A DNA stretch of 64,000 nucleotides. Origin: Anaerolineaceae bacterium (lineage in GTDB: Bacteria; Chloroflexota; Anaerolineae; Aggregatilineales; Phototrophicaceae). Under the pieces are notes generated by a model. That model did not search any database. It was not told the origin of the DNA and worked only from the letters and a program-made list of their open reading frames with translations. The stretch spans positions 34,488 to 98,487 of the forward strand of contig WGMX01000005.1 of the NCBI GenBank assembly GCA_016124855.1. The letters run 5' to 3'. Shown here piece after piece: positions 62,644 to 64,000 of this stretch. Position 1 is the stretch's first letter. Each line of letters opens with the position of its first letter. A program made the position numbers and the translations under genes.

Positions 62644-62668
62644 TGAATGTGTTTAGAAAGTGACTTTT

Positions 62669-62971
62669 ATGATTTTGGAAATCGTGACCATTTATATCAA
62701 AGCGGGGCAAGAAGCCGAGTTTGAAGTGGCGTTCAAAGAAGCCTCTCAATATGTTGCGGCGGCTCATGGCTACATCAAACACGAGCTAAGGCGGTGTGTG
62801 GAAACGCCCAACAAGTACGTCAATATGATCCATTGGCAAACTGTGGATGACCATATGGTGGGGTTTCGCCAATCAGAAGCGTTTCAGAAATTTCGAGCGC
62901 TGATTTCGCCCTATTATGAAGTCCCATCCGAGATGAACCATTATGAAGTGGTGATGCAAAATCCGGCGTAG
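62669..62971 (+). CDS. ABM-domain (antibiotic biosynthesis monooxygenase-like) protein 1
   Basis: A 100-residue dimeric alpha/beta ferredoxin-like barrel protein. MILEIVTIYIKAGQEAEFE, HGYIKHELRRCVETP, VNMIHWQTVDDHMVGFRQS and NHYEV match the ABM domain. Met 62669 aligns with its paralogue's start; the GTG at 62660 is an alternative. The function could be quinol or heme-related monooxygenation. The near neighbour at 63045 is clearly related, so this is a tandem duplication. Confidence 0.85.
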   Translation: MILEIVTIYIKAGQEAEFEVAFKEASQYVAAAHGYIKHELRRCVETPNKYVNMIHWQTVDDHMVGFRQSEAFQKFRALISPYYEVPSEMNHYEVVMQNPA

Positions 62972-63009: not shown

Positions 63010-63026
63010 TTCAGACAGGTTTTTAA
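63010..63026 (-). repeat. Solo end of the MITE-like element
   Basis: TTCAGACAGGTTTTTAA, nearly the right terminal repeat of the 63704-63855 element; the other end is absent nearby. Confidence 0.5.
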
Positions 63027-63044
63027 GACCGGGTGGGTGTTGCA

Positions 63045-63335
63045 ATGATTTTAGAAGTCGCCATACTGAATGTGAAGACCGCACAAGAAGCCGGTTTTGA
63101 AGCAGCATTTATCCGTGCGTCGTCAATCATCGCCAGCATGAAGGGGTACAGGCGGCATGAACTGCGACGCTGTCTGGAAGTTGCGAACCAATACGTGTTA
63201 TTGGTGGAGTGGGATACATTAGAAGACCATACCATTAGCTTTAGGGGGTCGGATCAATATCAAGAATGGCGGCGACTGCTGCACCATTTTTACGATCCAT
63301 TCCCAACGGTCGAGCATTATGAGGCGATTGACTAA
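63045..63335 (+). CDS. ABM-domain protein 2 (paralogue of 62669)
   Basis: A 96-residue ABM-domain protein. MILEVAILNVKTAQEAGFE, KGYRRHELRRCLEV, VEWDTLEDHTISFRGSDQY and VEHYEAI align with the first copy along their length. The ATG at 63045 is used rather than the GTG at 63033. About 73 bp separate the pair, and the gap contains a solo MITE end. Function as for copy 1. Confidence 0.83.
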   Translation: MILEVAILNVKTAQEAGFEAAFIRASSIIASMKGYRRHELRRCLEVANQYVLLVEWDTLEDHTISFRGSDQYQEWRRLLHHFYDPFPTVEHYEAID

Positions 63336-63350
63336 AATCAAGGGGAGACC

Positions 63351-63704
63351 ATGATGAACCGATTTTTTTTGACGGGGCCTAATTTACAGAATTCGACGAC
63401 AACTATTACAGTAACATTTGACCCCCAGCAAGTTGTTACGTGGTTAATTATCGGGCTAATCGCCGGATTTTTAGCCAACGTGGTCTTACGAGGAAGTGGA
63501 CGAAGTGTGATGTCCAATATCGTCATCGGATTAATTGGCGCGGTTGTTGGCGGCTTTTTATTCACGGTGCTGGGTATTCCAACACCCGCCGCTTTGAATG
63601 AAGGAATCACACTCCGTTATATTGATATTGTGATTTCGTTCATCGGAGCATTGATTGTCATAGCCCTGTTTGGGGGATTGTGGCGGCGGCGACGGATTGA
63701 TTAG
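63351..63704 (+). CDS. GlsB/YeaQ/YmgE-family (transglycosylase-associated) membrane protein
   Basis: A 117-residue integral membrane protein with three hydrophobic segments: VVTWLIIGLIAGFLANVVLRG, NIVIGLIGAVVGGFLFTVLGI and IVISFIGALIVIALFGGLW. This order is the GlsB/YeaQ pattern, linked to general stress. It has a longer N-terminal extension than typical (about 27 residues). Its TAG stop spans the left junction of the MITE-like element (the G is the first element base). Confidence 0.83.
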   Translation: MMNRFFLTGPNLQNSTTTITVTFDPQQVVTWLIIGLIAGFLANVVLRGSGRSVMSNIVIGLIGAVVGGFLFTVLGIPTPAALNEGITLRYIDIVISFIGALIVIALFGGLWRRRRID

Positions 63705-63731
63705 AACCTGTCTGAAAATTAATCAAATGCC

Positions 63732-63751
63732 GGACGCGATATATCGCGTCC
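63732..63751. repeat. Family D palindrome inside the MITE-like element, left
   Basis: Perfect 20-bp palindrome GGACGCGATATATCGCGTCC, then CTACA. Confidence 0.7.
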
Positions 63752-63807
63752 CTACATTTTTTCGGTGAAATAATGATTATTTCTTCTTTCAAAACGTATT
63801 TTCGTAG

Positions 63808-63827
63808 GGACGGCATACATGCCGTCC
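63808..63827. repeat. Family D palindrome inside the MITE-like element, right
   Basis: GGACGGCAT and ATGCCGTCC pair around AC; GTAG precedes it, so it is inverted relative to the left copy. Confidence 0.7.
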
Positions 63828-63873
63828 GCGTATTCCAGAATATTCAGACAGGTTCTTAACTGGACTTTGTACA

Positions 63874-64000
63874 TTAGGCGGCATAAGCCAGTAAATCGGT
63901 GAAGCGCTCCAGCAAGGCACGGGGAACTTTTACCATGTCAGGGTCATCAAGAGACATGTGAAAAATCCAATAAGCCCATAGACGAGCGCGCACCAGAGCG
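63874..64000 (-). CDS. Partial gene running off the right edge, C-terminal 42 residues
   Basis: An open frame on the minus strand with no stop before the edge. The visible C-terminus reads ARLWAYWIFHMSLDDP then MVKVPRALLERFTDLLAYAA and stops at 63874. Composition is coding-like, but 42 residues are too few for a family call. The MITE-like element lies just past its stop. Confidence 0.45.
   Translation of the reverse strand, partial: ALVRARLWAYWIFHMSLDDPDMVKVPRALLERFTDLLAYAA

Follow-up and report, generated by a model that had tools for sequence, protein, structure and literature searches.

A 152-bp MITE with IS5-type ends and an inner GTAG REP doublet in an Anaerolineaceae bacterium

The window, a stretch of 64,000 nucleotides from an Anaerolineaceae bacterium, carries near its right end a 152-bp element (63704-63855) which is very probably a non-autonomous MITE of the IS5 family (IS1031-like), moved by a trans-acting DDE transposase and bearing a RAYT-type REP doublet as its cargo core. 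Since the ends and the REPs are conserved and the intervening spacer and arms are not, the element is best described, from its sequence, as a hybrid in which a DDE-type MITE surrounds a RAYT-type REP doublet. Support comes from the ends, the TNA target duplications, the further copies, the IS5 relatives, the identity of the REPs, the RAYT linkage in two relatives, and the modular pattern of conservation, whereas an IS5 transposase acting in trans is the presumed means of movement. A preliminary description had recognised a MITE-like element with a TTA duplication, and the element is indeed a genuine MITE; that reading was incomplete, as the inner palindromes belong to a second mobile-repeat system, namely GTAG REPs with RAYT.

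Anatomy, copies and conservation

The inverted ends measure 17 bp and match at 16 positions, TTA stands on both sides, and no ORF of at least 60 aa lies inside, all of which agrees with the element as originally delimited. The two inner palindromes are in opposite orientation, the CCCTAC head of the first facing the GTAGGG head of the second. Both had been called perfect over 20 bp, which holds for the first (63732-63751, GGACGCGATATATCGCGTCC; 20/20) and fails for the second (63808-63827, GGACGGCATACATGCCGTCC; 18/20), where 9-bp arms flank a non-complementary AC centre. The features of the region are listed below.

63351-63704, + strand: upstream gene for a small membrane protein, Transgly_assoc (PF04226; Pfam match), ending in a TAG stop
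63701-63703: left copy of the target duplication, TTA, which fits TNA (other copies have TCA, TAA and TTA)
63704-63855: complete 152-bp MITE with IS5/IS1031-type ends and a GTAG-REP doublet inside (from ends, copies and alignment)
63704-63720, + strand: left terminal inverted repeat (TIR), GAACCTGTCTGAAAATT, conserved in the sister species
63732-63755, - strand: REP 1, GTAG head at 63755, stem GGACGCGATA/TATCGCGTCC; the same REP lies beside RAYT genes
63756-63803: spacer of 48 bp between the two REP heads, not conserved (cross-species identity 0.33-0.38)
63804-63827, + strand: REP 2, GTAG head at 63804, stem GGACGGCAT/ATGCCGTCC, centre AC; the same REP lies beside RAYT genes
63839-63855, - strand: right terminal inverted repeat, complement GAACCTGTCTGAATATT, matching the left end at 16/17
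63856-63858: right copy of the target duplication, TTA (read from sequence)
63860-64000: end of a different, multicopy IS (CTGGACTTTGTACAT...), 4 bp past the MITE; the contig stops inside this IS

Compared with shuffled sequences, the element folds with z = -7.3 as DNA and -8.1 as RNA and, given these scores and the copies elsewhere, it is beyond chance overall. Rfam returned only matches far below the gathering scores, microRNA-type ones among them, as expected of a hairpin.

Base 63704, the first of the element, supplies the G of the upstream TAG stop, as had been noted. Removal of the element together with one TTA leaves ATT GAT TAA; the gene therefore probably ended in TAA before the insertion and would encode the same protein; the empty locus is predicted to read ATTGATTAA. 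A position 3' of this gene would be harmless or mildly regulatory. Further upstream, two tandem genes with ABM (antibiotic biosynthesis monooxygenase) domains (62660-62971 and 63033-63335), possibly an old duplication, have a weak end-like motif between them.

The genome-wide search for copies proposed in the preliminary description found them both in the same genome and in relatives. The assembly comprises 7.1 Mb in 84 contigs that break at repeats (97.7% complete, 9% contamination), and holds a second full copy on contig 11 (98%; target duplication TCA/TCA), an internally deleted copy on contig 6 (TAA/TAA), relics, and a chimeric copy on contig 68 (C68, L003). The last was considered as a truncated copy and rejected as such, since its right arm comes from another scaffold, family B, which makes it a chimera. 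In the sister species G003 and G015 the architecture is the same and the sequence has diverged.

The 13-mer end, with at most one mismatch, occurs genome-wide at 20 sites, against 6 for the reversed pattern, and all seven exact sites lie within real copies. The site at 63010-63026, previously taken for a solo end, has 3 mismatches over 16 bases and no partner end; given these counts, it is near chance level and probably no relic. Further near matches to the end, L044 among them, lie in or beside genes and were likewise dismissed as chance.

An exact TNA duplication borders 11 of 14 aligned copies, a count that includes the window copy, scored TTA/TTA. One copy in G003 (L250) is itself interrupted at GAATAT-TCA-CGT by another, nested IS5-type MITE, whose left duplication, TCG, is one base off; L111 is the uninterrupted form of this site. 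The combined TIR and TNA pattern exceeds its reversed control in G015 (87 vs 4), G003 (54 vs 4), G013 (30 vs 0) and the source genome (18 vs 6). Across species, identity reaches 0.71-0.91 in the TIRs and 0.73-0.99 in the REPs, as against 0.18-0.53 in the arms and 0.33-0.38 in the spacer. A search of plasmids and phages for similar DNA gave no match.

The ends and their IS5-family relatives

The IS5 elements of genus-mates, together with the ends of ISLrh and the target preference of its group, lead us to place the ends in the IS5 family, IS1031-like group. ISLrh, a published element of the IS1031 group, has GAACCTGTCTAGTATCT at its ends, and insertion at TNA with a 3-bp repeat is favoured in that group (PMC12016507); the first 10 bases of the window element, GAACCTGTCT, are identical to the ISLrh ends (PMC12016507). 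A transposase with such ends had also been proposed as a search target, and relatives do carry IS5-family elements with this end type. Those of the genus-mates G002, G003 and G009, 880-890 bp long, share this end type and are bordered by TNA duplications. The G002 element (C111) has ends GAGGCCATCTGAAAAT, a TTA duplication and an intact transposase frame of 279 aa; that of G003 (C256), also duplicating TTA, encodes a transposase matching NF033580 transpos_IS5_3 (215 bits; cut-off 110), DUF4096 and DDE_Tnp_1; that of G009 (C163) has GAACCTATTTGGAAATT at one end, a TAA duplication and a decayed transposase.

With ISLrh and these three elements the window element shares the 3-bp TNA duplication and the ends, ISLrh starting with GAACCTGTCT and the IS1031-group relatives fitting GARRCYRTYTGAAAA. 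Unlike them, it measures 152 bp, carries REPs and has no transposase gene, the DUF4096/DDE transposase being a feature of the genus-mates; it is at most a derivative dependent on the IS5 family, IS1031 group. Two points weigh against the IS5-type MITE model: at position 4 of the TIR the window element has C where most autonomous relatives have G or A, and its own assembly yielded no IS that combines exactly these ends with an intact transposase, the only IS5-type match there being decayed. The same TIR type also encloses other interiors (L051, L247 and L249), that of L051 (1501-1640; G000 contig 66) being different and REP-free.

The multicopy IS with CTGGACTTTGTACAT ends (63860-64000; L274, L277, L280, L273, L279) lies 4 bp past the tip of an IS5-type MITE in 4 of 15 junctions (C14, C6, G003 C879, G003 C250), and in a fifth (C13) it adjoins a family B end. 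Judging from these positions, it may target MITE ends.

The REP doublet, RAYT genes and other scaffolds

The inner palindromes are GTAG-headed REP sequences of two types with their heads facing. They combine a GTAG head and a palindrome within the 20-40 bp range with repetition in the genome, where, if up to 3 mismatches are allowed, the two types occupy 20 and 30 sites and the reversed-pattern control none. All five inner stem pairs are kept in 30 of 59 distinct units, counted as if unrelated with kinship ignored, against 3.2 after arm shuffling, and stem variants change on both arms. GTAG repeats have already been reported for Chloroflexi, and by the nomenclature of the same source the pair is a heterodimer with GTAG termini inside (PMC3733652).

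REP 1/REP 2 pairs flank a RAYT gene of 165 aa in G003, one on each side, and surround one of 167 aa in G015, the two proteins being 68% identical; both loci repeat the two REP types of the window element and their head-facing arrangement, a RAYT-linked (REPtron) configuration. The two proteins score 77.9 and 77.2 bits against NF047646 REP_Tyr_transpos, below its cut-off of 80, also match Y1_Tnp, and by eye contain an HUH motif and a later Tyr. Around the REP sites found in the source genome, no RAYT was detected within about 1.5 kb, and a Y1_Tnp search of that genome, with a model that scores this RAYT type near threshold, recovered none of this type. Two small Y1 transposases encoded there (L031 and L032; 137 and 145 aa) were discarded as REP mobilisers, having no GTAG palindromes within 1.5 kb.

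Within a collection of species representatives, exact REP 2 is restricted to a few Anaerolineae/Chloroflexi assemblies and one contig labelled Clostridiales. A rumen contig so labelled (L152, 2767-2790) has a GTAG pair with heads outside, including exact REP 2, which could mean that a separate REP system exists there, that the sequence was transferred, or that the contig was misbinned. In G008 (L304, L268-L269) the GTAG palindromes are lengthened, and a single perfect palindrome (GTAGGGGCACGGCATGCCGTGCCCCTAC) bears a GTAG head at either end.

The same REPs reside in other scaffolds. Family B holds a single REP 2 between the ends ATGGTTATTTAC... and ...GTAAATNNCCAT, the G015 MITE L239 has GAAGCCGTTTGAAAA ends, and a family in G007 has the ends CTAGGTT.TGTTGAC. 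Judged by the similarity of their arms, roughly 22 of about 38 REP loci in the source genome fall in scaffolds of family A, that of the window element, or family B, the weakest of these matches being at about null level. Chimeras with A to the left and B to the right of REP 2 occur in two species (C68 in the source genome, L110 in G003), and their junction at REP 2 points to exchange at the REP.

Insertions at these repeats take several forms. Another IS (AGGCTTGTCCGTAGTTGG...) lies in the middle of REP 1 at one locus and of REP 2 at another (L005 at about 1540 and L018 at about 1600; G000 contigs 48 and 50); REPs are known IS targets. MITEs of families A and B sit at the centres of other GTAG palindromes (L004, L110, L080, L081), and L079 resembles the L080 site before insertion. 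The flanks of family B are mirror-symmetric around the insertion (L082, L102; GGTT..AACC, GCGCAT..ATGCGC), a symmetry consistent with TA insertion into palindromes.

Competing readings and biological meaning

From the anatomy and the relatives, a DDE transposase made elsewhere would bind the GAACCTGTCTGAA ends and insert the element at TNA, duplicating 3 bp. The core is a head-facing, GTAG-headed REP pair of the kind associated in this genus with the RAYT (HUH tyrosine transposase) system, and as cargo it would hitch-hike with every spread of the MITE. In RNA form, the element would give the gene in front a 3' end with strong folding, which would allow it to land beside stop codons harmlessly.

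Several known systems invite comparison. Like the GTAG REPs, REP dimers and REPINs associated with RAYTs, the present REPs have a GTAG head, a 20-bp stem and changes matching on both arms, form an inverted heterodimer with GTAG ends inside, and flank RAYT genes in sister species; unlike in those systems (PMC3733652; PMC3116915), the doublet lies within DDE-type terminal repeats and a target duplication, and its own mobility as a bare REPIN would be putative. RAYTs are thought responsible for REP spread by a mechanism described as poorly understood (PMC8266576). The GTAG-15 dimers of Anabaena variabilis are similarly and regularly enclosed by a longer inverted repeat, TATAGGA...TCCTATA, which the accessible portion of the source describes as a target, assigning it no IS family or TNA duplication (PMC3733652). 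ERIC, NEMIS, Nezha and other bacterial MITEs resemble the window element in size (70-300 bp), terminal inverted repeats, absence of genes, proximity to genes and strong folds, but have other ends and target duplications. To our knowledge, none of them has a REP doublet as its conserved core.

That same-type REP doublets flank RAYT genes and recur in unrelated scaffolds (e.g. G007 L253-L256) would also suit a REPIN-like unit moved as a whole by a RAYT, the outer inverted ends being merely a favoured landing palindrome, and a precedent exists in Anabaena and Halothiobacillus, where longer palindromes enclose REP dimers (PMC3733652). This account is nevertheless highly improbable, as exact TNA duplications lie right at the TIR tips in 11/14 copies, and the same TIR type occurs with other interiors (L051; L247, L249) and on full IS5-type elements. 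HUH transposition generates no target duplication. Somewhat less improbable, and still doubtful, is that the palindromes chiefly terminate transcription of the upstream gene or stabilise the 3' end of its mRNA, the element having been domesticated as a regulatory part: its position at the stop codon, its strong RNA fold (z -8.1) and the presence of CTACATTTTTT directly after REP 1 would fit, but terminator-like sites are no commoner in the region than in shuffles (1 vs 0.7), and the other copies are scattered, with no common neighbouring gene noticed in the stretches read.

Two further readings concern how the REPs relate to the MITE. The two systems may simply coincide, a REP doublet having entered an IS5-type MITE once and been co-copied since, with no functional interaction; we give this a little less than an even chance, and it is compatible with the preferred explanation, an IS5-family MITE with REP cargo, as its simplest evolutionary form. 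REPs without TIRs and TIRs without REPs in the same genomes favour such a coincidence, as do REP-bearing scaffolds of different origin (family B and the G007 family), whereas spacer and arms have become too divergent to align among three species in which both REPs retain 73-99% identity, a contrast suggesting that the REPs have been kept, or repeatedly renewed, inside the MITE. It seems unlikely, if less so than the regulatory account, that the doublet is itself a functional component of the MITE, with the IS5-type DDE transposase and the HUH RAYT both acting on one 152-bp element; RAYT or REP folding may, for example, aid single-strand release, REP renewal or half-exchange between MITE families, and for the last the A/B chimeras seen in two species can be cited.

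Each part of the preferred explanation is known, and Anabaena REP dimers inside long palindromes are a partial precedent in the open-access literature (PMC3733652); the MITE reading is extended here by a conserved core, the REP doublet with its RAYT relatives. In one genome, a large proportion of the REPs lies in small inverted-end elements of at least two kinds. Since REPs occur in such elements, an ordinary transposase can amplify part of a REP family through hitch-hiking, and caution is advisable before REP copy number is read as RAYT activity. Related genomes with and without a RAYT beside their REPs offer a set in which the two routes of spread could be separated.
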